Shown piece after piece: positions 2,647 through 26,365 of a stretch of DNA of 64,000 nucleotides; position 1 is the first letter of the stretch; every line of letters begins with the position of its first letter. A program made the position numbers and the translations under genes. Origin of the DNA: Methylobacterium sp. SyP6R (GTDB lineage: Bacteria > Pseudomonadota > Alphaproteobacteria > Rhizobiales > Beijerinckiaceae); assembly GCF_019216885.1 (NCBI RefSeq), contig NZ_JAAQRC020000001.1, positions 806,001 to 870,000 on the forward strand, given 5' to 3'. The notes below the pieces were generated by a model that worked only from the letters and a program-made list of their open reading frames with translations, was not told the origin of the DNA and did no database searches.

Positions 2647-4002
2647 TCAGCCGCGACGATCCCGGAGCTGATGGTCCTGGTCCGTCTCATTCGTCACGAA
2701 TACCTTCGATCGATCGGCCTGCGCCGGCCTGGAAGCGGCGGGATCGGCCTGGGAGGGGAGCCCGGCCGGGCGTCCCATCTTCCGGTCGAGGGCGAGCAGG
2801 ACCGGGGTGACCATGATGCCGTGCATCAGGATGGAGATCAGCACGGTCAGGCCGGCCGTCGCCCAGAGCAGGTCCGTTTGCTCGAACGGGGCATGGCCGA
2901 TGGCGAAGCACAGGTAGTAGACCGTGCCCAGCCCGCGGATTCCGAAGAAGCTGACGACCGCCCGCTCCTCGCTGCGTCGGGCGCTGCCCAGCAGGCTGAT
3001 CCAGCCGCTCAGCGGACGGACGACCAGGAGCGCCAGCAGGGCGAACGCGACGGCCGGCCAGGTCAGGGCGTGCAGGAGCCCCCCGCCGACGAGGACGGCG
3101 CCGAACCCGACCAGCAGCACCATCATCAGGATGCGCTCAAGTTCCTCGGCATAGTCGTGCATCGTGCGGTGGTAGTCGTGCCCCCGGTTCGAGGCACGCA
3201 GGGCGAGGGCGGCGGCGAACACGCCGATGAAGCCGTAGCCGTCGACTGCCTGGACGCCGCCATAGGCGATGCAGGTGACGCCGAGCGCCACGAAGCCGTC
3301 GCCGGTGCGGGACAGCTTCGAGACGTTCGGAAGATGGAAGGTCAGCCAGCCGAGCCCCCGGCCGATGACCGCGCCGAGCACGAAGCCGACGACGATCTTC
3401 CACACCACGTCGACCGCCAGCCAATGCGACCAGGACAGGCCGGCGAGGCCTCCGGTTCCCGCCATGGCGATGGCGAGGTTCACGAACGGAAAGGCAAGCC
3501 CGTCGTTGAGGCCCGCCTCGGAGGTCAGTGCGAAGCGCGGCTCGTCCTCGTGCTCTTCGGCCGGGTGACCCACCTGAACGTCCGAGGCGAGCACCGGATC
3601 GGTCGGGGCCAGCGACGAGGCGAGGAGCAGGGCCGCGGCGCCTCCGAGCCCGAGCAGGGCCGATCCCAGGAGAGCGAGCGCCAGGATGGTGAGAGGCATG
3701 CCGACCGCGAGCAGGCGCCATGTCACGGCCCAGCGCTTCCAGCCGATCATGCGGTCGATCTTCAGGCCGGCGCCCATCAGCGAGATGACCACCACGGCCT
3801 CGGTGGCGTGCTCAATGAGCTTGAGGTGCAGGCTCGGATGGGGCATCAGGTCGTAGAGCGTCGGAACGGCCGACAGGGCGGCACCGATGCCGACACAGCA
3901 GATGGGGAGCGAGAGAGGCAACCGGCGCAACACCATCGGCAGCCACGCCGTCAGCAGCACCATGACGCCGAACCCGGCGACGACGACGATGTATATGTCC
4001 AT
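2647..4002 (-). CDS. Na+(K+)/H+ antiporter, CPA1 (NhaP-type) family
   Basis: A 451-residue integral membrane protein from ATG 4002 with about twelve hydrophobic segments. Family hallmarks are LAPTDPVLASDV near residue 130, the ion-binding Asn-Asp pair in EAGLNDGLAFPF (about residue 165), the acidic DYAEELERI loop, and FFGIRGLGTVYYL near residue 380. The Asn-Asp pair points to electroneutral exchange of CPA1 type. A short soluble tail ends near 2647. The same frame remains open upstream of 4002 into IS66 remnant DNA as far as 4647, so the annotated start matters; residues before MDIYIVVVAGFG are transposon-derived. The gene may be expressed from sequences supplied by the remnant, since no separate promoter is obvious. 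Confidence 0.88.
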   Translation of the reverse strand: MDIYIVVVAGFGVMVLLTAWLPMVLRRLPLSLPICCVGIGAALSAVPTLYDLMPHPSLHLKLIEHATEAVVVISLMGAGLKIDRMIGWKRWAVTWRLLAVGMPLTILALALLGSALLGLGGAAALLLASSLAPTDPVLASDVQVGHPAEEHEDEPRFALTSEAGLNDGLAFPFVNLAIAMAGTGGLAGLSWSHWLAVDVVWKIVVGFVLGAVIGRGLGWLTFHLPNVSKLSRTGDGFVALGVTCIAYGGVQAVDGYGFIGVFAAALALRASNRGHDYHRTMHDYAEELERILMMVLLVGFGAVLVGGGLLHALTWPAVAFALLALLVVRPLSGWISLLGSARRSEERAVVSFFGIRGLGTVYYLCFAIGHAPFEQTDLLWATAGLTVLISILMHGIMVTPVLLALDRKMGRPAGLPSQADPAASRPAQADRSKVFVTNETDQDHQLRDRRG

Positions 4003-4065
4003 TGGTAGCCGAACGACGTCCTCTGTCGCCTCGTTCCTGGTCGCGTCGTCTCTGCGACTTTGAGA

Positions 4066-4232
4066 GCATCGGTGATCAGGTGGCCCTGCCGGCCGCGGAA
4101 CAAGGCCTGGCCCTAGAAGGGATCGCGCGCCAGATGGTCCTGAACGAGGGCGGCCAGCCCGTCGAAGCCCTTGCGCATGTCGGTGTGCCCGGTGGCCAGC
4201 CAGACGCCCGAGCCGGACGGAACGGGGATCAT
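4066..4232 (-). pseudogene. IS66 TnpB (Orf2) fragment with in-frame stop
   Basis: From ATG 4232 the frame reads [20 protein letters not shown], then [10 protein letters not shown], the conserved N-terminal signature of IS66 Orf2 proteins. A TAG stop interrupts it at 4113-4115 directly after HLARDPF, yet the same frame continues with family-like residues (LFRGRQGHLI) before similarity ends near 4066. The gene is therefore broken by a nonsense codon and truncated at its 3' end. Its ATG overlaps the native tnpA stop, as in intact IS66 elements. Confidence 0.75.
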
Positions 4233-4602
4233 CGACCGAGCAGCGCGGCGATCGCGCCCTGAGGAGCGTCAGGTCCGCCCCGGTTGCGGCCCGCACCCGA
4301 TGCCCGCCGGCCAGCTCGATCTCGACCAGACCCGACCCGGCCGGCACGTCGGCTGTCGCCGTAGCTGGAGGTGGCAGGGCGAGCGGGATGTAGTTCGATG
4401 GGGCAGCCGCAGCCGAGGTCCGGTGCTCGGCCAGCGCGACGCGCCGCCATCGGAACAGCAAGCTGGAGTGCAGACCGTGCCGGCGGGCTACCTCCGAGGC
4501 TGTCGTGCCCGGATCGTCCGCCTCAGCCAGGATGGCGCGCTTCTGCTCGGGCGACCCGACTTGGCGCGTGCCCGCAACAACGACACGAGGAGAGTTAGTC
4601 AT
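4229..4602 (-). pseudogene. IS66 TnpA (Orf1) with frameshift
   Basis: From ATG 4602 the frame encodes a TnpA-type helix-turn-helix region (SPEQKRAILAEAD, TASEVARRHGLHSSLLFRWR) followed by the usual Pro/Ala-rich linker and IELAGGHRVRA. Near 4262 the reading frame slips: the native C-terminus IAALLGR and its TGA (4229-4231) lie in a different frame. The interval is 374 bases, one short of a multiple of three, consistent with a single-base deletion. The slipped frame stays open and runs into the antiporter gene. Confidence 0.7.
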
Positions 4603-4912
4603 AGGTCCAGACGCAAGGCCGATACAACGCCATCTGACGTCAGACACTTATCCAAAACAAATTACTACAAGCACAAGGCGGCTGCCACCGAGATCTTACC
4701 TTGAAGGATATCGTCAGCTTCTGGATATGCGGTGCCTTCAATCGCGACTGCCAAGTTGCCGCATGAGAGACGTAAATGGGGTCAAGCAAACATCGCTCAA
4801 TGAAAACGCACTAGTCCGCAGTCACCGCGCCTATGTCCGTTCTCGAAATTGCATCCGACCTTCGAAGTGCGCGAGATTGATGTCGGCATGCGGCGCATTT
4901 CGGTCCTTCACA
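4603..4912. other. Intergenic stretch without recognised genes
   Basis: Apart from the possible IS66 end near 4671-4699, nothing coding or structured was recognised between the transposon remnant and the glycohydrolase stop codon at 4913. Confidence 0.4.
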
Positions 4913-9111: not shown

Positions 9112-9762
9112 TCAGCCTCCTCCCGCGTCCAAGCGCACATAGGTTTTGCGCACGCCATCCGCCGTCCAGTGGCGTCCCGTGGCCGTCGTGACCCCGCGCG
9201 CGTTCAGCTCGTCTGCCGCAGCCTTCCAGCGTCCAGATCCTTCGGGCAACTGCGACAGAACTGCAGCAACCTCCTGCTTGGCCTGCGATCGCGTCGCCTG
9301 TGCCTCCGACGATTGCCGGCGCTGCCAGCGCCGGAAGTGTTTCACCGGATCGAAGACGCCCCCCTCGATCGGCGCCGGATCGGGGCGCAGGTCCTGCACT
9401 TGGATGCCGCGGTTCTCACTCGCGTCTTCGAGAATGGTTCGCATGACGCCATGGGGGCGCCAGTGATGGACGAGGGAGAAGTCGACGTACACGAGCGTCG
9501 CAGCATTGGCCGCGCACAGCGCAAGGGGGCGAGCCAGCGCCTCAGCCACGGCGTCCGTCCCGCGATCGACCGCCAACTCGAGGAAGGCCGCCTCGTCGAG
9601 AAGATGGCCCCTCTGCTCGGTCACGTAGCGTCGCACCAGCGTGAGTTGATAACGGATTGTACGACTGAGCCGGGCGACCGCCTCGACGTCGCGAGGCCAC
9701 GACCGCACAGGCCGACGCGGTACCGGGAGCGTCCAGTAGAACCCGACGAACTCTTGCCCCAC
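9112..9762 (-). CDS. Hypothetical protein with recombinase-like C-terminal segment
   Basis: A 216-residue protein starting at GTG 9762, which is preceded by a strong GGAGGGAG ribosome site. The first 130 residues (PRRPVRSWPRDVEAVARLSR, then TIRYQLTLVRRYVTEQRGHL) show no known motif. The C-terminal 35 residues (AADELNARGVTTATGRHWTA, then DGVRKTYVRL) resemble the segment of large serine recombinases that reads LN-x-RG-x-x-T-x-x-G-x-x-W. The N-terminal catalytic serine domain of a recombinase is absent, so this is not a complete recombinase; it may be a DNA-binding accessory protein or a decayed fragment. It is divergent from the helicase-like gene at 9933, and the 170-base gap could hold control sites for both. 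Confidence 0.6.
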   Translation of the reverse strand: MGQEFVGFYWTLPVPRRPVRSWPRDVEAVARLSRTIRYQLTLVRRYVTEQRGHLLDEAAFLELAVDRGTDAVAEALARPLALCAANAATLVYVDFSLVHHWRPHGVMRTILEDASENRGIQVQDLRPDPAPIEGGVFDPVKHFRRWQRRQSSEAQATRSQAKQEVAAVLSQLPEGSGRWKAAADELNARGVTTATGRHWTADGVRKTYVRLDAGGG

Positions 9763-9932: not shown

Positions 9933-11414
9933 ATGACTCCCAATGAAGCCTACCACGTGCTCGGGCTCGAGCCGAGCGCCACCATTGAGGCGATCAAGGC
10001 TGCCTTTCGGGCGGGCGCCAAGACCAATCTCTCCGACCTTAACAGCGGTGGCAGCGACACGAAGTTTCACCGCGTTCAGGAGGCCTACGATGTCCTCGCC
10101 AAGAGCCGCGTAGACGGCGGCCTCGAAGAGGCTGACGCGGCCGATGACGCGGACGACGATCGTGGTCAGAAACACAGACAGCCGCCCACCGATGCCGCCG
10201 TTGATTTCGTTCAGGCCTTCCTCGCTGAGCGCGGCATCGAAATCCTGTTCGACGGCTCTCTCACCAAATCCGGCGCCATGCTCAAGGCTGAGAGCTTGGA
10301 CGCGATCGTCGCCTTCCTCAATCAGGAAGAGGTCAACAGGGAGTGGCTCATCGATGAACTCGTCAGTCTGGCCCAGAGCCGTGGCATCGCCTTCAAGAAG
10401 AGCGACCTTACGCGCGCGGTGCGCGTCGTGATGCGCGTGGCGCAGAGGATGCGCCGCAACGCGGTCGTCTTACCCTTGCTGATGCCGCCCACTGATGCGG
10501 AGCGGGTGATCGCCCCCCAGGCGTGGTCGCAACTGACCGAGGCCGTCTTCGAGACCGATCCGGTGCTCGCCGCTGCCTGCCTGCAGCACTTTATCTGGCA
10601 GGTGAAGCGCAAGCTCCTAAACTTGAGCGTCGAGCACCACCTGATGCCCGTCATCTGGAGTCCGGTGCAGGGCGGCGGCAAGACCACGTTCGTGCGCGCC
10701 TTCCTTGAACCGGTGCGCGAACTCTCCGGCCCGGTTCTGCTTTCGGATTTCGCCGATAAACGCTCGGGCGACATTTACCACTTCCCCGTCCTGTTCGCCG
10801 ACGACCTCGAGCAGATCGAGCCGCGTCTGGTCCAACCGCTCAAAGGCCTGGTGTCGGGCGATCGCATCCGGCGGCGCAAGCTTGGCACCTCGTCAAGCGA
10901 CGGCTATGAGCAGCGCACTACGCTGATCGGCACGGCCAACCACCCCATCGACGCGCTCGTGGCCGATGCCACCGGAAACCGACGCTTCGCCAGCCTTGCC
11001 TTCCGGAATGGCAAGAAGGAGACGGGCGGTGACGAGAGCGTCTGGGACGCGGTCAAGGCTGCCGATTACGCCCTGCTCTGGCGCTCTGTGGACGTCTATG
11101 GGGCGGCGCCGATCGCCGCGCATCTGCCCGCCCTCGTCGAGCTGCAGAAGATGCACTGCCAGCCGGATCCCATACTGGCGTGGCTGCTCGCGCTCGACTT
11201 CTCCACAGAGCGGGTCAAGCGCGTCAACAGTACCTATGGGCCGCGCGCCTCCGACCTGCACGATCTGTTTTGCGAGCAGATGAACAGCGTGATGACGGGC
11301 ACGCGGTTCGGGATCGGCATGACGCGACACGTCCGCAACCCTAAAGTGCCCTACGGCCCGCGGATCAAGAAGGTGTCGGGCTGGTATTACCCGATCAAGG
11401 ATGTCGCGCCTTGA
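9933..11414 (+). CDS. J-domain / VapE (SF3)-like ATPase fusion
   Basis: A 493-residue protein. Residues 1-55 look like a DnaJ J domain (EAYHVLGLEPSATIEAIKAA, then FHRVQEAYDVLAK), but the HPD tripeptide that stimulates Hsp70 is replaced by NLS. A charged linker (about 60-85) leads to an ATPase region: Walker A GGGKTT at about 247-252, Walker B LFADDLEQ at about 287-294, and LIGTANHPIDALVADATGNR (about 331-350), the sensor-1 and arginine region of virulence-associated E and related superfamily-3 phage or plasmid helicases. No primase motif is visible. It heads a four-gene plus-strand cluster and is likely a replication helicase of the element. The stop codon overlaps the repeat-encoded small frame at 11401. 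Confidence 0.75.
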   Translation: MTPNEAYHVLGLEPSATIEAIKAAFRAGAKTNLSDLNSGGSDTKFHRVQEAYDVLAKSRVDGGLEEADAADDADDDRGQKHRQPPTDAAVDFVQAFLAERGIEILFDGSLTKSGAMLKAESLDAIVAFLNQEEVNREWLIDELVSLAQSRGIAFKKSDLTRAVRVVMRVAQRMRRNAVVLPLLMPPTDAERVIAPQAWSQLTEAVFETDPVLAAACLQHFIWQVKRKLLNLSVEHHLMPVIWSPVQGGGKTTFVRAFLEPVRELSGPVLLSDFADKRSGDIYHFPVLFADDLEQIEPRLVQPLKGLVSGDRIRRRKLGTSSSDGYEQRTTLIGTANHPIDALVADATGNRRFASLAFRNGKKETGGDESVWDAVKAADYALLWRSVDVYGAAPIAAHLPALVELQKMHCQPDPILAWLLALDFSTERVKRVNSTYGPRASDLHDLFCEQMNSVMTGTRFGIGMTRHVRNPKVPYGPRIKKVSGWYYPIKDVAP

Positions 11415-11529
11415 CCCGGCAGACCCGGCAGACCCGGCAGACCCGGCAGACCCGGCAGACCCGGCAGACCCGGCAGTGTTTGCGGACGCCGGTGCGCCGT
11501 CAAGCCCCGATCTCGACCAGGTCGCGTGA
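11401..11529 (+). CDS. Putative 42-residue DPA-repeat peptide
   Basis: From ATG 11401 (AAGG directly upstream) the frame encodes MSRL, seven consecutive Asp-Pro-Ala triplets, and the acidic tail VFADAGAPSSPDLDQVA. The start lies inside the end of the helicase gene, and the TGA at 11527-11529 shares its A with the ATG of the clamp-loader gene at 11529. It thus bridges the two genes with overlaps at both sides, as in translationally coupled operons. Because the repeat unit is 9 bases, copy-number changes would keep the frame. It could instead be non-coding spacer; the same DNA is open in another frame, from TTG 11411, as Thr-Arg-Gln repeats. Confidence 0.45.
   Translation: MSRLDPADPADPADPADPADPADPAVFADAGAPSSPDLDQVA
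11413..11475 (+). repeat. Seven perfect tandem copies of GACCCGGCA
   Basis: The 9-base unit GACCCGGCA is repeated seven times without a mismatch, then stops at GTGTTTGCGG. It sits precisely between the stop of the helicase-like gene and the clamp-loader gene. Perfect short tandem repeats of this kind change length by polymerase slippage. Confidence 0.95.
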
Positions 11530-13685
11530 TGACATCCGCTCACATCACAGTCCCCGCACCCGGGATCAGACTCATGACGCCCATGAACCTCGCCCAGAAG
11601 TATCGCCCCGCCACTTTCGAGGCTGTGCTGGGCCAATCCCACCCTGTCCGGTTCCTCTCGGGCTTGATCCAGCATGGCCAAGCCGCCCGGTCGCTGCTGC
11701 TGCACGGGGCGATCGGGTCGGGCAAGACCTCGCTCGTGCGGATCTACGCGCAGGCGCTTAACTGCGAGACCCCGACTGCGGAGGGCTCTCCTTGTCGGAC
11801 CTGCAGGTTCTGCCGCGAGGGAGCCGGCTTCCACGAGTACGACACGAGCGGCCGCGGCGGTGAGCGCGACGCCGTCCTCGAATGGGTCGCCCCACTCTAC
11901 CGGACTCCAACCGAGCACCGCTGGACGGTGCTGTTCCTCGACGAGGCACAGGCGCTCGAGGCCAGGGCCGCCGACGCCCTCTTGAAGATGGTCGAGGAGC
12001 CGGAGCCGCGGGTAGCCTTCTGCTTCGCCACGACGGAGTTCGCCAAAATCAGACCGGCGCTGCGCTCGCGCCTGATCAGCTTCGAGATCAAGCCGTTGTC
12101 GGCAATTGATGCGATCGCGCTCATAAAAAAGTGCGCTCAACATGAAGGCATTAACTACGAGCCCGGCGCGCTCGAGCTCCTCGCCGGCCTGCGCCAGGGC
12201 TACGCCCGCGACCTGCTCACCGGGCTCGAGCAGGTGCGCGACCCCAACGGCCGCCCGGTCACGATCGCTCGGGTGCGCGAGGTCTTCGACATCGACCACA
12301 CCGAGCGCCTTCTCACCTACGTGCACGCGCTCGCCGAGGGCGATCCGGCGGCACAGAACGCGGCGTGGTTGTCCTGGCAGGAGGTTGCCGCAACGAAGCT
12401 CGGATGGCTGCAGGCACTGCTCACTGGCCTATACTACAACGACGTGCTGGGTCAGGCGATCACCGTCGACGCGCTGATTGCCTCGATCCTGCCGGCGGAA
12501 CGCGCGCCGATCCTGACCACCTTCCGCGAACGCCTCGGCGTAGCGTCGGCCGAAGGCCTCGCCCCTTACTGGCGGGCGATGATGTCGCACTGGACGGTCG
12601 CGTCGCTTGAGCGCGACGAGACGGCGCTGCAGCTACGGGTCGCGCTGTTCCATTACTTTGTGAACAACGAACTTCCAGCGCTCGAGCGTGGACCGCAGCC
12701 GAAGGCCCACCGACGCTCCACGACGCGCACGGACGTGCCCAACGAACCCATCGTAGCCGACGAGCCCGAGCTCTCACACCTGCCAGTCGGCGGGCCGGAT
12801 CGCTCCCTGACGGTCGACGACGCGCGTGGCATGATCGCATCCGCCTCCTACCTGATGCAGGAACACGGTCGGTTATTCAACGCGCGCTTGCGGATCGAGC
12901 CAGCGCTGCTCGGCATCGAAGAGGAGGCGGAGGCCGTCGCTCTCATCGCGGAGTTCTGCCGGGATCTGGACGCGCAGGTCCGCCTTTGGAGCCGGGCACC
13001 CTTCGCACGCCTCAGTCTCATCGAGCGCGACATCGGGCGCGGGGGCCATGTTACCGGGTGCATCCTCGTCCATCTGCCGGAGGCAACCGAAGCCGGCCGC
13101 TCGGTCGAGACGATGGCTCGGATCGTGTCGTGGGCGAGCCTCTGGCGGCGCGAGGTGTGGCTTCCGGGCTGCAACGCGGTGGCCGTCGAGACCCCGGCCA
13201 CGGCTAGGGCGAAGCCCGTGACCTTCCATTGGGACGGAGTCCTTAACCTATGCGCCGGGATCGGCGAGGACGCGATGGAATGGGATTCGGCCTGCGGTAC
13301 GCCGGCCCCGCTGTTGGACTTGCTCGAGATCCCCCAGTCGCGTCGGCGGATCGTCGGCCGGATCGCCGCGCCGCTCGTCGGTCGTTCCGACCTCCTCGGC
13401 CCGCGCGCAGTCGAGGAGGCGTGCGCTAACGGCATGCTGCTCCTGTCGGCTCTTGAGGCAGGGCAATGGGGCCACATTCGCTCGGGCTGGGAACTGCAGG
13501 AGCACACCGACCGACGGCGGACGAAGACAGAGCGTGCCGCGGCGCTCGCGCATGTGGCGGAGGTATATGGCGACACGGCGGAAGCCCGAACACGCCGCGC
13601 GAACCTCGAAGCGAGCTGGCAGGGGCTGCCGGAGAAGCGATTACGGCGGGAATGGCGGGGCTGGTGGCTTCCGGAGGAGGTCTAA
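11529..13685 (+). CDS. DnaX (gamma/tau)-like clamp-loader AAA+ protein, divergent
   Basis: A 718-residue protein from ATG 11529 (a later ATG at 11583 is possible). It starts like DnaX with LAQKYRPATFEAVLGQSHPV, then Walker A GAIGSGKTS (about 59-67), a four-cysteine zinc module of C-x9-C-x2-C-x2-C type (about 79-95), Walker B VLFLDEAQAL (about 135-144), LLKMVEEPEPR, sensor-1 FCFATTEF, and SRLISFEIKPL where housekeeping DnaX has the SRC motif. The C-terminal 350 residues match nothing I know. The chromosomal dnaX would be expected elsewhere, so this is probably an element-encoded second clamp-loader subunit. It is coupled upstream to the DPA frame and is followed after 3 bases by the next gene. 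Confidence 0.8.
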   Translation: MTSAHITVPAPGIRLMTPMNLAQKYRPATFEAVLGQSHPVRFLSGLIQHGQAARSLLLHGAIGSGKTSLVRIYAQALNCETPTAEGSPCRTCRFCREGAGFHEYDTSGRGGERDAVLEWVAPLYRTPTEHRWTVLFLDEAQALEARAADALLKMVEEPEPRVAFCFATTEFAKIRPALRSRLISFEIKPLSAIDAIALIKKCAQHEGINYEPGALELLAGLRQGYARDLLTGLEQVRDPNGRPVTIARVREVFDIDHTERLLTYVHALAEGDPAAQNAAWLSWQEVAATKLGWLQALLTGLYYNDVLGQAITVDALIASILPAERAPILTTFRERLGVASAEGLAPYWRAMMSHWTVASLERDETALQLRVALFHYFVNNELPALERGPQPKAHRRSTTRTDVPNEPIVADEPELSHLPVGGPDRSLTVDDARGMIASASYLMQEHGRLFNARLRIEPALLGIEEEAEAVALIAEFCRDLDAQVRLWSRAPFARLSLIERDIGRGGHVTGCILVHLPEATEAGRSVETMARIVSWASLWRREVWLPGCNAVAVETPATARAKPVTFHWDGVLNLCAGIGEDAMEWDSACGTPAPLLDLLEIPQSRRRIVGRIAAPLVGRSDLLGPRAVEEACANGMLLLSALEAGQWGHIRSGWELQEHTDRRRTKTERAAALAHVAEVYGDTAEARTRRANLEASWQGLPEKRLRREWRGWWLPEEV

Positions 13686-13688
13686 GCC

Positions 13689-15041
13689 ATGATGCGCGAC
13701 ATCGACTTCCTCACGGATCGGCCCGCTTTCGCCGGCACGCTGATTTACCGGTACCATTCCGGGATCCTGCGCCCGCAGGTGCGCGCGGCGTTGGCCGAGA
13801 TCGCGGGCTGGGAGGGACGTGCCCTCTCCCGCTGCGAACGAGATGACCTGCTCGGCACCGTAGGTGTGAGCTTGGTCTCCGACGCCTATTTGTGCGACTG
13901 GACGGCACTCACTCCATCGAGCGCGCTAGCATCCAAGCTCGACGCGATCCTCACGCGCATTGTCGCAATGGCCGGCCAATGCTTCGCGCTCTTCATCCCG
14001 TTTGAGAGCTCCCTTTCGGCGCGACCGCTCTGGGACGAGGTCGAGCGGACGGCGGGTCTCGTGCTCGTCGAAGACCATGTCACGAGCGATACGCTGCTGC
14101 CGGCGCTGAGCCTGTTTCAGGCGATGAGCGACCTTGCGACAGGTGCCGATTGGCTCGCCGACCCCGCCTTCGTCGCGAGCTTCGATCGATTCAGGGCGCG
14201 CGGGAGACGCACGCTGCTCGAGCTGCGCCATGCCTTCGACGAGCGCGTTGCCGCCTGCACGGATCCAGTCACCCACGCGTTCCGGCCGGAGGTCTATCGC
14301 GATCTTCATCCAGACGAGGAACGTTCGCACACGGCCTCGGCACGGCGCGACCTGCGCCGGCTTTTGGCGCGTCATCGTGGTTGGGACCGCTTCGCTCTTG
14401 TTCGGACACTCGACGATCGCCTTGCGCGGGACGGCTGGACGGCGCTCGCCGTGATCGCTGAGCTTCACCGTGCCACCGCTTCCATCCTCGAGCAGCCCAA
14501 TTACTCGGCGGAACACGGCGTGATGAAGAGCGTCGGGATCATCGATCTCGTCCTGTGGGCGGCCCTCCTTCTGTCCTGGGATGGACGGTTTCGCGCGGTC
14601 GCGGCCACCGACGCGGACGGATACCGGCGCCGGCCAAGCTGCCTCGTCATCACGCTCGACGAACTCGGTCGGGACTTCCTCGCGCGGGCAGACCTCACGG
14701 TCGACGTCGACCCGTTGGCGGGCGTCTGGGCTGGGCTGGACGACGCGTTGATGCGCATCGCTACGAGTCCAACCGACGCGCTGGGGTCAGTCCGGATGGC
14801 GACGCTCGACGCGCTACATCAGCGCCTGTGCTGCGCGACGACAGATATCGCGTGGATGCTACGCCTGCGTCGGCGCGTCCGGCGGGCGATCGGCGAGGCA
14901 GAGGCAGCAGAGACCGAGCGTCGCGCCGACGAGATCGGGAGGGAGCGCGCGGTGCAGGACGCCGCGGTAGAGACGGCCCGGGCGAAGGCCGGAGCAGCCG
15001 CGATCGCACGAGCTCTCGATGAACCGAAGACAGGGCGCTGA
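13689..15041 (+). CDS. Unknown protein in clamp-loader cluster
   Basis: A 450-residue protein from ATG 13689 (or 13692); a GGAGGAGG sequence inside the end of the upstream gene serves as ribosome site. It is largely alpha-helical with Arg- and Asp-rich surfaces and no membrane segment. Phrases include YHSGILRPQVRAALAEIAGW, ELRHAFDERVAACTDPVTHA and LLLSWDGRF. The last 60 residues (IGEAEAAETERRADEIGRER and following) form a likely coiled coil. No catalytic motif or family was recognised. It sits between a gamma/tau-like and a delta'-like gene, so it may be a third subunit of the same complex, perhaps in the place of delta; this is inference only. Confidence 0.65.
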   Translation: MMRDIDFLTDRPAFAGTLIYRYHSGILRPQVRAALAEIAGWEGRALSRCERDDLLGTVGVSLVSDAYLCDWTALTPSSALASKLDAILTRIVAMAGQCFALFIPFESSLSARPLWDEVERTAGLVLVEDHVTSDTLLPALSLFQAMSDLATGADWLADPAFVASFDRFRARGRRTLLELRHAFDERVAACTDPVTHAFRPEVYRDLHPDEERSHTASARRDLRRLLARHRGWDRFALVRTLDDRLARDGWTALAVIAELHRATASILEQPNYSAEHGVMKSVGIIDLVLWAALLLSWDGRFRAVAATDADGYRRRPSCLVITLDELGRDFLARADLTVDVDPLAGVWAGLDDALMRIATSPTDALGSVRMATLDALHQRLCCATTDIAWMLRLRRRVRRAIGEAEAAETERRADEIGRERAVQDAAVETARAKAGAAAIARALDEPKTGR

Positions 15042-15042
15042 G

Positions 15043-16173
15043 ATGAGGGATCCTGACGAAACGACGCCGGACGACATCGAGGACCGGAGATGGCTTGGTT
15101 TGAGCCAAGCAACGGTGCTCGGACACGCCAGGACGGCGAACGCACTGCGCGAACGTGTTCGCGCTCGCCGGCACGACACCGGGATCATACTCCACGGGCC
15201 GAAGAGCGTCGGCAAGCGGACGCTCGCCCGGCTCTACGCCCGGGCTGTGCTGTGCGAGACACCGGACGAGGCGGGCGAGGCCTGTGGAGGCTGTAACGAA
15301 TGCAGGTCGTTCATTGCGAGTCGTCCGCTCGGCTACAAGTGGCTCGATGCGGTGAAGCACGGCGATGAGAAGACGGCCCGCAAGCTCGTTTCGGAACTGG
15401 CTACCGGATCGCTGGCGGCCCGTCGGGTCATCGTCATCGCGAACGCGGATCGGTGTGCGAACAGGGTGTTCGATAGGCTCCTGAAGACTCTGGAGGAGCC
15501 TAAGAGCCCAACTACGTTCATTCTGCTGGCCCGTGCGCTCAGTGATGTGCGGTTGGCCGGGCAGTCGCGATGCGAACTCTACCGCTTGCGTCCCCTGATG
15601 CGGGAGGACGCGCGGGTACACTTGGTCAATTTGCTCTCCGTAACTGGAAGGAGGGTCGAGGAACGTGTGCTAGACGTGGTTGTCGCCGAGTCCGGCGGAC
15701 GGGTTGGCGCGATGCACGCCGTCCTGCAGCGGCTCGGCACGCTGCCCGCCATAACGCTGGCCAGCGTGCGGACGACCCTGGGTCACGACTGGGTCGAGGG
15801 TGTCACAGCTTTCTGGCGAGCGGCACTGTCCGGGGAAACATCACCATCGGCGGCGTTGACGCCGCCTCTGGCGGATGACGCCCGCGAGACGGGGCGGCGC
15901 CTGCGGGCGGTCCTGCTGCAGCTGCGACCGTCCGATCTCGATGGCGTGCCGGCGACGGCATCAAGTCACGAAGCCGCGCTCGTGCACCGCACCCCGGTGA
16001 TCCGTGGGCTGACCGCGGCGCTGGAAAGCCGGGCAGCGTCACTCGGTCGGCGGCCATCCGATCTCTGGTCCGCGCTTGCCTGCCTCTGGCTCTCGGACGA
16101 TCACAGCGATGTCGAGGGGCTATCTGAAGGGGTCCGCGCGACGTGCCGCCTCCTTGCTCCAGAATATGTGTGA
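15043..16173 (+). CDS. HolB (delta')-like clamp-loader protein
   Basis: A 376-residue protein from ATG 15043, just past the upstream TGA (15039-15041); an ATG at 15019 would overlap the previous gene. It has a P-loop GPKSVGKRT (about 52-60), a cysteine module CETPDEAGEACGGCNEC (about 73-89), the segment VIVIANADRCANRVFDRLLK followed by TLEEPKSP, and AGQSRCELYRLRPL containing the SRC arginine motif. The usual Walker B DEA is replaced by NAD, as expected for a non-hydrolysing delta'-like subunit, although the P-loop is retained. Together with the DnaX-like protein it could form a minimal clamp loader for the integrated element. The C-terminal half is divergent. Confidence 0.75.
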   Translation: MRDPDETTPDDIEDRRWLGLSQATVLGHARTANALRERVRARRHDTGIILHGPKSVGKRTLARLYARAVLCETPDEAGEACGGCNECRSFIASRPLGYKWLDAVKHGDEKTARKLVSELATGSLAARRVIVIANADRCANRVFDRLLKTLEEPKSPTTFILLARALSDVRLAGQSRCELYRLRPLMREDARVHLVNLLSVTGRRVEERVLDVVVAESGGRVGAMHAVLQRLGTLPAITLASVRTTLGHDWVEGVTAFWRAALSGETSPSAALTPPLADDARETGRRLRAVLLQLRPSDLDGVPATASSHEAALVHRTPVIRGLTAALESRAASLGRRPSDLWSALACLWLSDDHSDVEGLSEGVRATCRLLAPEYV

Positions 16174-16990: not shown

Positions 16991-18547
16991 TCAAGGTATC
17001 CGCGATATTTGTTCTAGAAGCATTGGTAAGCCATAGCCACCGTATGCGCCACTGACCGATTTCTGTCTACCCAGCATGTAGATTGTCACGTCCTCGCGCA
17101 AACCTTTATCGCGAGAGAGAGTTGAGAAGCGATGGCGCCAACCGTGATTCGGTTGCATGCGCGGATCGACCATTCCTAGTGAGCGGATCCAACGTCCCAG
17201 CACTTTGCTGCCGTTTCCTCCTCGACTGCCAAATCGATCAGGTGGAAGTTCGGCGAACAGAGGTCCCGATTTGGCTGAAGCTACGAACTCCAGGAAGCCT
17301 TGCGCAATCAAGTTCGGGTGGACTGGGATAGTACGCTCAGAATTTGCATTCTTGAGTGAGCCCGCTTCAGGGCGAATGGCAATAACATGGATCTTACTGT
17401 CTGCGTAGACATCTTCCTTGCGCAACTGACAGATCTCAGCCACTCGTGCGCCGGTATAAGCGCAAAGCCAGGGGACCCATCGCCGCACGCTGTCATGCGC
17501 CTCCGTGGCTGCCGCTAAGATTTGCTTGACCTCATCCTCTGTTGGATCCCGCTTACGGTCGACGCTACGAGCTTTGGTTGTGACCTTAATGCCGCGCGCT
17601 ACATTGTTTGTGATCTTCTTATTATCAACGCCCCACTGAAGAATTGTTCTTAGTGGCCCAATTTTACCATTGCGAATTGTTGTGCCTCTCAAACCCTGTT
17701 GAAGCAGAGAATTTTTCCAGCGCACTACGTCGTCTTCTGTCACTGCTGTAGCATCGCCGCGCCCATTAAAGGCGATGAACTCCCGAACCACTCGTGGGAA
17801 GACGTAGGCAGTTTTGGCGGCAGGCTGGCGCTCGCGCAGCCAGCCTTCGATCAGTGCTTCTAATTGAACAACCTCTCCGCTGGCGCGCGATAAATCAGGA
17901 GCGTGAGCCTTGAGAGTCTTAGAGGTGGCCGATATTGCCGACGAGACCTTCCCGTCAGCAACTGGCGTCCAACGCCCCTGACTCATATCGCGGAGTTGCA
18001 GAGCGCCTATCTGCATCGCCTTAGCAATGGCACGCACAAGTTCCCGGCGGCTATCGAAATCAACGCGGAGTCCGTCCCGCGCGAGCTTCCAATCAGCCGT
18101 TCGTTCGCACCAGGCCCGCATATCCTCACGAACCATTATGAGAGGATCAAGCGGTCTATTAAAAAAGTCGAGGGCTGACTCTCCGGGTTTGAGAATGATA
18201 GACGCTGGCGAGAAGAGATCTCCGCCTGCTTCGATATTCCAAAGATCCTGACGGCTCGGATAGTCGTGATATTTGGCGACAAATTCCTCGCCGATGCTGG
18301 CGGCAAGAATATGCGCATCTTTCTCGGTGAGGGTACGTGCGCCGCCCCGGAGGTTCGCCCATTGTGCCTCAAGCTCGGCGAGCGCCAAAGCGAACAAGCG
18401 CTTCGCTTCTTTAGGATCGCGTGTGCCGAGGCTGCGGCGGACCTCGTTACGGCCGAGCACCGCCTTCAGATCGTCCGGGACGCGCCGGCGCAGGTAGTAG
18501 ACCCGCGTGCGCGGATGAAGCCAGGGAGTCGCCATTGCAAGGGCCAT
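16991..18547 (-). CDS. Tyrosine recombinase (integrase) of the tRNA-Ser island
   Basis: About 518 residues from ATG 18547; ATG 18535 and a longer frame to 18601 are alternatives, and MATPWLHPRTRVYYLRRRVP marks the usual N-terminal domain. The catalytic domain is complete: the first arginine in YTGARVAEICQLRKEDV, His-x-x-Arg in NHGWRHRFSTLSRD, and the nucleophilic tyrosine in GAYGGYGLP near the C-terminus, following LGRQKSV. The gene ends near the AT-rich stretch and starts only 86 bases from the tRNA-Ser 3' end, the arrangement of integrases that target that tRNA. It looks intact and potentially active. Confidence 0.9.
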   Translation of the reverse strand: MALAMATPWLHPRTRVYYLRRRVPDDLKAVLGRNEVRRSLGTRDPKEAKRLFALALAELEAQWANLRGGARTLTEKDAHILAASIGEEFVAKYHDYPSRQDLWNIEAGGDLFSPASIILKPGESALDFFNRPLDPLIMVREDMRAWCERTADWKLARDGLRVDFDSRRELVRAIAKAMQIGALQLRDMSQGRWTPVADGKVSSAISATSKTLKAHAPDLSRASGEVVQLEALIEGWLRERQPAAKTAYVFPRVVREFIAFNGRGDATAVTEDDVVRWKNSLLQQGLRGTTIRNGKIGPLRTILQWGVDNKKITNNVARGIKVTTKARSVDRKRDPTEDEVKQILAAATEAHDSVRRWVPWLCAYTGARVAEICQLRKEDVYADSKIHVIAIRPEAGSLKNANSERTIPVHPNLIAQGFLEFVASAKSGPLFAELPPDRFGSRGGNGSKVLGRWIRSLGMVDPRMQPNHGWRHRFSTLSRDKGLREDVTIYMLGRQKSVSGAYGGYGLPMLLEQISRIP

Positions 18548-18632
18548 GTGTACCACCCGTGTGTACCACCGGGCGCCCAAAAAGCCATTGTTAGACAGCA
18601 AGCTACGGCAGGATCACCACATATTTACGTGG

Positions 18633-18724
18633 TGGCGGAGACGGAGGGATTCGAACCCTCGAAGCCCTTTTAGGGGCTTGCTCATTTAGCAAACGAGTGC
18701 CTTCAGCCGCTCGGCCACGTCTCC
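18633..18724 (-). tRNA. tRNA-Ser (anticodon GCU)
   Basis: On the minus strand the acceptor stem GGAGACG (18718-18724) pairs with CGTCTCC (18637-18643). A D-arm, a 5-bp anticodon stem with loop TTGCTAA (anticodon GCT, reading AGC and AGU), a long variable arm typical of class II tRNAs, and the T-arm GGTTCGAATCC follow. Discriminator G (18636) and an encoded CCA (18633-18635) complete it. The 3' end faces the integrase gene, so it is the probable attachment site of the island. Confidence 0.97.
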
Positions 18725-24630: not shown

Positions 24631-26304
24631 ATGTCTTCGATTCGCGCGCGCCTCCTGGCCGCACTGGCATCGTTGTTCGCCTCCATCGTGACGATCGCCG
24701 GGATTGGCTGGTACGCGTCGAGCCTCGCCAATCGCGACATGAACGGCATGTACCGGGACCGCGTCGTGCCCTTGCGCGATCTCAAGATCATCGCCGACTT
24801 GTATGCGGTCGACATCGTCGACACGGCGCACAAGGTGCGCAACGGCAACATCTCCTGGCCGGCCGGGACCGCCTCGGTCCGGAAGGCGCAGACGCGCGTC
24901 GCCGAGATCTGGCAGGCCTACATGCTCACCAACATGGACGAGGCCGAGCGACGCCTCGCCGGCGCGGCCCGGCTCAGCATGGAGGCGGCCGACGGCAGCG
25001 TCTCCGATCTCCAGGCGATCCTGCGCGCGAACGACCAGGCGGCACTCGATGCCTTCGTCCGGACCCGCCTGTACCAGGCGATCGACCCGGTCAGCGAGCA
25101 GGTCGCGAAGCTCATCGATCTCCAGATCGCCGAGGCGGGCGAGCTCTACGACGGCTTCGCCGCGGCGTACCGGCTGAACCAGACGATCGGCGCCGGCATC
25201 GTCCTCGGCGGGCTGGCGGCGGGGATCTTCGCCCTCGCGACCACCTTGCGCGGCGTGCTGGCGCCACTCGCGGCGATCACGTCGGCGATGCGGCACCTGG
25301 CCTCCGGCGACGCGGCCCGCCCGGTTCCCGGTCTCGGCCGGAAGGACGAGGTGGGCTCGATGGCGGCGTCGGTCCAGGTCTTCAAGGACAACCTGATCCG
25401 CTCCCGGCAGATCGAGGAGGAGAGCGCCCTTGCCCGTGCCTCGGCCGAGGAGCAGCGCCGGGCGACGATGCGGGAGATGGCCGGGCGTTTCGAGGAGGCG
25501 GTCGGCGGCGTCGTCGACCGGGTGTCGTCCTCCGCCGCCCAGTTGCAGGCGACCGCCCAGGCCATGGCGGCGGCGGCGGCACAGACCTCCGGACGCTCCA
25601 CCGCGGCGGCGGCTGCCGCCGCGCAGGCCTCCGACAATGTCGGCACCGTGTCGGTCGCCGCCGAGGAACTCGGGGCCTCGATCCAGGAGATCGGCCGCCA
25701 GGTCCACAACGCGGCGGGCCTGGCGCAGGGGGCCGTGCACGAGGCCGACCAGACCGGCCGCCTCGTCGAGGCCCTGGGTACGACCTCGGTGCGGATCGGC
25801 GACATGGTCGGGCTGATCTCCTCGATCGCCAGCCAGACCAACCTGCTCGCCCTCAACGCCACCATCGAGGCGGCACGGGCCGGCGAGGCCGGCCGCGGTT
25901 TCGCCGTGGTGGCGGCCGAGGTGAAGGAACTCGCGACCCAGACCGCGCGGGCGGCGCAGGAGATCGTCGGCCAGATCGGCGAGATCCGGGGTGTGACCGC
26001 CCAGGCGGCGAGTGCCATCGGCACGATCGGGGACCGTATCCGGGAGGTCGATGCCGGCGCCACCGCCATCGCTGCCGCGGTCGAGGAACAGAGCGCGGCG
26101 ACCCAGGAGATCGTCCGCAACGTGGTCGAGGCCTCGGCCGGTGCCGGGGTGGTCACCAGCAACGTCGTGGAGCTGGCCCACGCCTCGGAGGAGAGCGGCG
26201 CCGCCGCCGCCCAGCTCCTCGCCTCCGCCTCCGACCTGTCGCGCCAGTCGAGCCAACTCTCGGCGGAGGTCGGCCGCTTCCTCGCCACCGTCCGGGCGGC
26301 CTGA
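24631..26304 (+). CDS. Methyl-accepting chemotaxis protein
   Basis: A 557-residue receptor from ATG 24631; the much longer open frame upstream is not coding. Layout: transmembrane helix about 8-30 ([20 protein letters not shown]), a small periplasmic helical-bundle sensor of about 155 residues, a second helix about 187-207 ([20 protein letters not shown]), HAMP about 208-262, and a cytoplasmic signalling domain about 290-557. The kinase-contact tip is the conserved [20 protein letters not shown] (about 396-415). There is no C-terminal CheR-tethering pentapeptide. The ligand is unknown. It stands alone without che genes nearby. Confidence 0.92.
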
Positions 26305-26365
26305 CGGCCCCCCGGATCCCGCCGTCACTGACCCACCGTCACTGACCCGCCATCACTTGCCTGCA

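Follow-up and report, generated by a model that had tools for sequence, protein, structure and literature searches.

Clamp loaders are regarded as general-purpose machinery for locating primed ends. In phage T4, gp44/62 is the clamp loader, and the phage also encodes the clamp and polymerase. Polyomavirus large T antigen joins a J domain, a non-nicking HUH-fold origin-binding domain and an SF3 helicase in one protein. The accessible part of one article on plasmid RK2 reports that its initiator TrfA cooperates with the clamp loader of the host and has a motif by which it binds the host beta clamp, and raises the question of how a plasmid initiator and a clamp loader act together in clamp placement (PMC4980987). 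Here we describe a four-gene cassette that has features in common with each of these systems, at positions 9933-16173 of a 64,000-nucleotide stretch of Methylobacterium sp. SyP6R (the window; bases 806001-870000 of contig 1, C1, in a 7.5-Mb genome). As the original prediction from this DNA had it, the four genes lie in a row on one strand: the open reading frames (ORFs) are intact, head to tail and all on the + strand. They encode a VapE-like protein, a DnaX-like protein, a protein of no known family (X) and a delta'-like protein. Our best explanation, to which we give an even chance, is that the cassette serves to replicate a mobile element integrated at a tRNA gene, with a dead Rep domain guiding a private clamp loader to the element origin, where it would load the host clamp.

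The DnaX-like protein (719 amino acids; 11526-13685, + strand) consists of an active-looking AAA+ ATPase with a zinc module, followed by a dead HUH/Rep domain. The protein matched DNA_pol3_delta2 in Pfam (E-value 7e-20) and phrog_5846, 'clamp loader of DNA polymerase' (4.7e-44), and the profile of its family matched E. coli gamma/tau at 2.5e-51. The NCBIfam model dnaX_nterm was hit at 1.3e-51, yet below that model's cut-off. Walker A, Walker B and the zinc module were present in all ten DnaX-like proteins of the cassettes that we compared (loci in other genomes are given by L numbers and genomes by G numbers). Both residues of the SR arginine finger, S181 and R182, were nearly invariant in a 17-row alignment, which places the protein among the DnaX-type clamp-loader ATPases.

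Its partner at the end of the cassette is a delta'-like, ATPase-dead AAA+ protein (384 amino acids; 15019-16173, + strand), which matched PF13177 (DNA_pol3_delta2) at 1.4e-21. The original prediction had noticed its SRC motif and degenerate Walker B. SRC is indeed present, while Walker B is missing rather than degenerate, and Walker A is altered too, with GKR instead of GK[ST] in the window. None of the ten delta'-like proteins has a Walker B box (DE-[AVH]-[HQ] pattern), and nine keep SRC, with SRS in L029. Having no active ATPase site but a retained SRC, these proteins are predicted stators. The zinc module (C, then C..C..C) had been ascribed to the DnaX-like protein, where it was found, but it is not confined to it and occurs in both ATPases. 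The delta'-like profile was nearer to E. coli gamma/tau (5.7e-38) than to delta' (6.7e-15), so the protein may be a DnaX derivative rather than HolB. An active-looking gamma-like ATPase with a zinc module and an SRC partner without Walker B is also what the bacterial clamp loader (DnaX/gamma-tau, delta, delta') has. The claim of an own helicase and a two-ATPase clamp-loader-like set thus held for the set and for the SF3-type ATPase; the composition differs, with one active-looking ATPase, one partner without Walker B, and X.

Since Pfam and NCBIfam give these proteins dnaX/holB-like names, the genes might be the host's housekeeping dnaX and holB or old decayed copies. The original prediction had staked its reading on the existence of other copies, and a genome search found both, dnaX at C1:2907128 and holB at C1:1491669. 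The housekeeping holA lies at C1:345266 and one dnaN at C1:2071. Because all four are located elsewhere, the island genes are extra copies, and a housekeeping role is refuted. Decay is likewise at odds with the intact ORFs and with ratios of nonsynonymous to synonymous substitution rates (dN/dS) below 0.3: against L022 the four genes gave, in order, 0.12, 0.24, 0.27 and 0.26. Moreover, just 7 genomes, our own among them, had the full set out of 111 sampled in the genus (a lower bound). We regard this explanation as scarcely credible.

In place of the tau tail of the bacterial loader, the DnaX-like protein ends in a 300-residue domain (residues about 420-719; 12783-13682, + strand) that matched no Pfam family and is homologous to HUH Rep proteins. 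The C-terminal part of the window protein found a 349-amino-acid protein, L021 (genome G383), at 9.1e-12. Searching back, L021 found three DnaX-like cassette proteins at 2.2e-15, 2.2e-14 and 1.3e-11, the last being that of the window, and also four standalone relatives (L047, L048, L050 and L049) at 2.5e-10 to 6.9e-4. These five standalone proteins matched PF23343 (Replication-associated protein ORF2/G2P) with scores that all fell below the cut-off of 27.8 bits (E-values: L021, 1.7e-5; L047, 0.0034; L048, 0.00014; L049, 0.0002; L050, 0.00026). All five keep HxH (HTH, HSH, HSH, HLH and HTH) and YxxK, which we take for the HUH motif and the tyrosine motif that rolling-circle initiators carry.

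Conversely, the HxH pair is broken in all nine aligned cassette members (the window and eight others): six are without either His, L029 keeps the first, and L022 and L027 keep the second. The catalytic Tyr is missing in all nine; N, D, A, E or L stands in its place, ahead of LC. The C-terminal domain of L095 resembles these nine in having lost the HxH pair and the Tyr. The cassette domain is therefore homologous to that of rolling-circle Reps (PF23343-type, ORF2/G2P) but differs from them in lacking both catalytic motifs and in being fused to a clamp-loader ATPase. A profile of the domain found nothing among solved structures. One standalone relative with HxH and YxxK, L050, is encoded in the same genome as the window (G000:C1:1366029-1366634), perhaps on another element capable of rolling-circle replication.

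Other relatives are in intermediate states. Fusions in L099 and L100 have the Tyr but neither His, and the fusion in L101 has neither motif. L096 and L098 encode the ATPase (367 amino acids) separately from the dead Rep (372 amino acids in the former, 368 in the latter), in two adjacent genes; an integrase and a tRNA-Gln are present on these islands. Taken together, these relatives appear to show stages in the loss of the HUH catalytic residues, a single line of descent not being implied. Beside DnaX-like/dead-Rep pairs on tRNA-Gln islands lies an unfamiliar protein of 565-708 amino acids (L097:3391-5517; L098:9994-11892; L096:7264-8961). By eye it was a candidate DnaN-like clamp. Profiles gave this no support: the hhalign probability against DnaN was 0.46 (three rows only), none of the three proteins was among the 206 listed of 329 called genes in a profile ranking, and solved structures yielded nothing. 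A search of 327 genomes, none of which was known to hold the protein, had no match and says nothing either way.

The first cassette gene encodes a protein of 493 amino acids (9933-11414, + strand) with a J domain (Pfam DnaJ, residues 6-57, E-value 4.6e-7) and a VapE-like domain (residues 204-369, 3e-7), both over the Pfam cut-offs. The VapE-like match (PF05272, 30.6 bits against a curated cut-off of 25) bears out the VapE/SF3-like ATPase of the original prediction, and helicase activity is predicted. Walker A, DD.E and TG.RRF are conserved in an alignment of nine loci. A single weak hit, to a phage family named 'DNA primase', covered the ATPase part. The J domain, which had escaped earlier notice, as had the likeness of the DnaX C-terminus to Rep proteins and the joining of X and the delta'-like protein in relatives, is found on six of the ten VapE-like proteins, by Pfam in the window and L095 and by alignment in L022, L023, L025 and L027. 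None was noted in L024 (upstream frames included), L026, L029 and L018. The same three ingredients make up large T antigen; in the cassette they are split over two bacterial proteins and a clamp-loader ATPase is added, which we would read as a likeness of parts.

Protein X (450 amino acids; 13689-15041, + strand) was already listed as unknown in the original prediction, and at the limits we applied it matched none of the families of Pfam, PHROGs, NCBIfam or PADLOC. A search of 5.8 billion proteins, with 7,997 candidates scored, gave six relatives besides X itself. X and the delta'-like protein are separate in the window, L022 and L095 and form one chain in the other seven loci (L023, L024, L025, L026, L027, L029 and L018), a further difference from the bacterial clamp loader. 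Because of this fusion, we assign X to the clamp-loader-like set. X profiles built without each divergent fused member still matched it (L029, 1.7e-37; L018, 3.8e-49; L026, 2.5e-75; E-values for a nominal database of 1000). Against solved structures the X profile hit only one designed-looking protein ('CTLA-4 binder', 0.044). An hhalign probability of 99.9% for X against the delta' alignment proved to be an artefact, as alignment row P0019 contains part of X.

The order VapE, DnaX-like, X, delta'-like is kept in ten distinct loci: the window, L022 (the same element as L094), L023, L024, L025, L026, L027, L029, L018 and L095. The linkage that the original prediction proposed to survey is thus conserved. 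Named hosts belong to Methylobacterium, with M. mesophilicum and M. oryzihabitans among them, or to Bradyrhizobium; the genome that holds L018 falls in a different family within the order. Among 13 loci, L030, L031, L032 and L034 were set aside as having clamp-loader ATPase matches only, with no X or VapE match, and two hold cassette remnants, L028 (Microvirga aerophila) and L033 (M. soli). A tRNA lies near the cassette in five of the ten loci (Ser(GCT) twice, Ser(TGA), Glu and Arg) and an integrase in four (window, L095, L025 and L029).

Searches of genome samples scored few candidates per genome, so the counts are lower bounds. Within the genus, a profile of the DnaX C-terminal part was positive for at least 13 genomes out of 111, counting our own; seven of the 13 carry the full cassette (again with our own) and six are without X and VapE. 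In a sample of the order, the C-terminal part of the window protein had matches in at least 5 of 397 genomes, own included, one of which is a standalone Rep. In a class sample of 385 genomes, the own genome was the sole match among the candidates scored. X had no match in plasmids, phages or viral contigs, the DnaX-like C-terminal part none in phages, and the delta' alignment none in viral contigs. The DnaX-like protein of L023 matched 125 plasmid records, with no place covering 80% of the protein. The cassette shares with phage clamp loaders (T4 gp44/62, phrog_5846) the presence of clamp-loader ATPases on a mobile element, whereas no Rep fusion turned up in the phage collection searched with the C-terminal part and X.

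The cassette was also confirmed to lie on an element integrated at a tRNA. A tyrosine integrase (DUF6538 and Phage_integrase by Pfam; 16991-18601, - strand) adjoins tRNA-Ser(GCT) (18633-18724, - strand), the insertion site. The right flank and the tRNA are conserved in G015 (94%) and G020 (91%), and homology breaks off at 18633; the tRNA has its 3' end at this position, which is therefore the right border of the element. In L095 an integrase 75% identical to that of the window lies beside the same tRNA, and at the corresponding position G989 carries a near relative of the integrase, with 87% DNA identity. Beyond the tRNA and integrase, comparison with G020 and G015 gave a single match, a 71% stretch at 25792-26305. 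Their left flanks were found neither in the left part of the window nor in the 40 kb to its left. The only second copy of 21 nucleotides of the tRNA end, with at most one mismatch, was at C1:3216006 inside another tRNA-like match; a shorter repeat may exist.

At the junction of the helicase and DnaX-like genes lies a 9-bp tandem repeat, GACCCGGCA, in 7.1 perfect copies (11413-11476, + strand; Tandem Repeats Finder score 128), which we consider candidate iterons. The repeat scan covered eight loci (the window, L018 and L022 to L027). Arrays of period 9 or 18 were found at this junction in five of them: the window, L022, L024, L023 (weak, 2.0 copies) and L026.

We propose the following mechanism. 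DnaX-like subunits, the delta'-like protein and X, in the place of delta, would assemble a clamp-loader-like ring. The dead Rep domain would no longer nick but might still recognise the element origin, either a hairpin or the 9-bp repeats, and position the loader there. A VapE hexamer would melt and unwind the origin, and in relatives with HPD the J domain could recruit DnaK. Once the origin is primed, the loader would set the host beta clamp there, which would bring in host Pol III. The net effect would be that an origin-directed clamp loader replaces a nicking initiator. Loading of the host clamp on element DNA, already suggested in the original prediction, remains the best reading of these sequences, as a proposal. 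If this is correct, the cassette would define a new class of initiator, an origin-addressed private clamp loader in which a clamp-loader ATPase is fused to a non-nicking Rep and accompanied by a J-domain SF3 helicase, with the host clamp loaded at the element origin and X-delta' acting as a fused wrench and stator. We put this class forward tentatively, as somewhat short of an even chance.

Several observations weigh against the proposed mechanism. The four proteins have no polymerase, clamp or primase family over the cut-offs of Pfam, PADLOC, PHROGs and NCBIfam. Five patterns for the QLxLF-type clamp-binding motif found none in the four window proteins, only SLF in X, a result that does not decide clamp binding. 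HPD is kept in five J domains (L022, L023, L025, L027 and L095), whereas the window reads LSD. Junction arrays are absent from L025, L027 and L018; those found lie partly in coding sequence and their units differ between loci, for which reasons iteron identity is only a guess. X is the main uncertainty of the mechanism: as delta it would make the set a full clamp loader, and sequence profiles do not show delta. It had no significant profile match to HolA, with hhalign probabilities of 0.61-0.88. In a HolA-profile list of 239, drawn from 329 called genes, proteins bearing X ranked 17th to 140th, with DnaX-like proteins at the top. These tests used 9 and then 39 HolA rows (30 added, from 79 genomes with a match), a few of the rows being over-long ORFs. 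By eye, X has HolA-like stretches in HolA order (IYRYRSG.LR, GGLF....LCDW and W..VE), which we do not count as evidence. Finally, six congeners (L096-L101) have a DnaX-like/Rep-like pair without X, VapE or a second delta'-like frame, in fetched stretches that were also searched in six frames. The loader partners are therefore not always needed, which argues against a general loader role.

These congeners, the failure to detect delta in X and the lack of a visible clamp-binding motif would also suit a different function. The DnaX-Rep protein could be an origin-bound AAA+ remodeller that, with delta' and X, loads or regulates the VapE helicase in the manner of DnaC/DnaI-type loaders, or that acts alone with host delta and delta'. 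However, both ATPases fall in the clamp-loader branch by their matches to E. coli gamma/tau, the pairing of an active ATPase with an SRC partner lacking Walker B is a clamp-loader layout, and all parts are kept in ten loci. We consider a remodeller unlikely, though a credible competitor.

Under the clamp-loading reading, the cassette would have in common with RK2 TrfA, as far as the accessible part of that article goes, an element initiator that directs clamp placement at its own origin. TrfA uses the host loader (PMC4980987), whereas the cassette element itself encodes loader-like ATPases. Among the literature matches listed, no paper describes such an element by its title or the start of its abstract. 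If the reading is true, a loader fused to a domain that once nicked and recognised origins would link origin recognition directly to the loading of a clamp, and the cooperation of initiators and clamp loaders would become directly testable in a naturally fused system. The relatives also line up as successive states of a Rep nuclease that decays and is put to new use, and a likely replication core is named for a group of islands, two of them with CBASS or Zorya genes.

On the L018 island, CBASS genes (a patatin-like phospholipase effector, cyclase, E1-E2 and JAB) lie directly 3' of the cassette (L018:12257-16793), and Zorya-type ZorA, ZorB and ZorD lie near the remnant in Microvirga aerophila (L028:9639-17382). 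ArdC-type anti-restriction genes follow the cassette in L023 (11756-12733) and L027 (11136-12533). All of these look like cargo of islands that have the cassette as their core. The nearness of CBASS and Zorya genes on related islands could instead suggest that the cassette is itself an anti-phage system, sensing replication through clamp-loader mimicry, as the original prediction had also considered. This sensor role found no direct support: no PADLOC family matched below an E-value of 0.03, the one match listed being a 30-residue P-loop of the DnaX-like protein to IetA at 0.03, and no effector-type domain was among the over-cut-off families of the four proteins. The helicase, the Rep-derived domain, the integrase and the tRNA site all indicate element replication instead. 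We judge a defence sensor less likely than a replication role, and improbable.

A PDDEXK_13 nuclease recurs on the islands. Pfam identified it in L022 (2043-3686, fused to DUF2958) and L026 (1337-2788), and similar genes were found by BLAST in L018 (3991-5250), L095 (14985-16328), L101 (15646-16992), L099 (1247-2581) and L021 (10018-11073). Upstream of the cassette, a divergent gene of unknown function (9112-9762, - strand) encodes 216 amino acids with no Pfam family over the cut-off, and a copy with 58% identity adjoins the cassette in L022. Elsewhere in the window, a single open frame at 2647-4647 combines HTH_Tnp_1, a transposase-type helix-turn-helix, with a sodium/hydrogen exchanger, perhaps a join made by an insertion.

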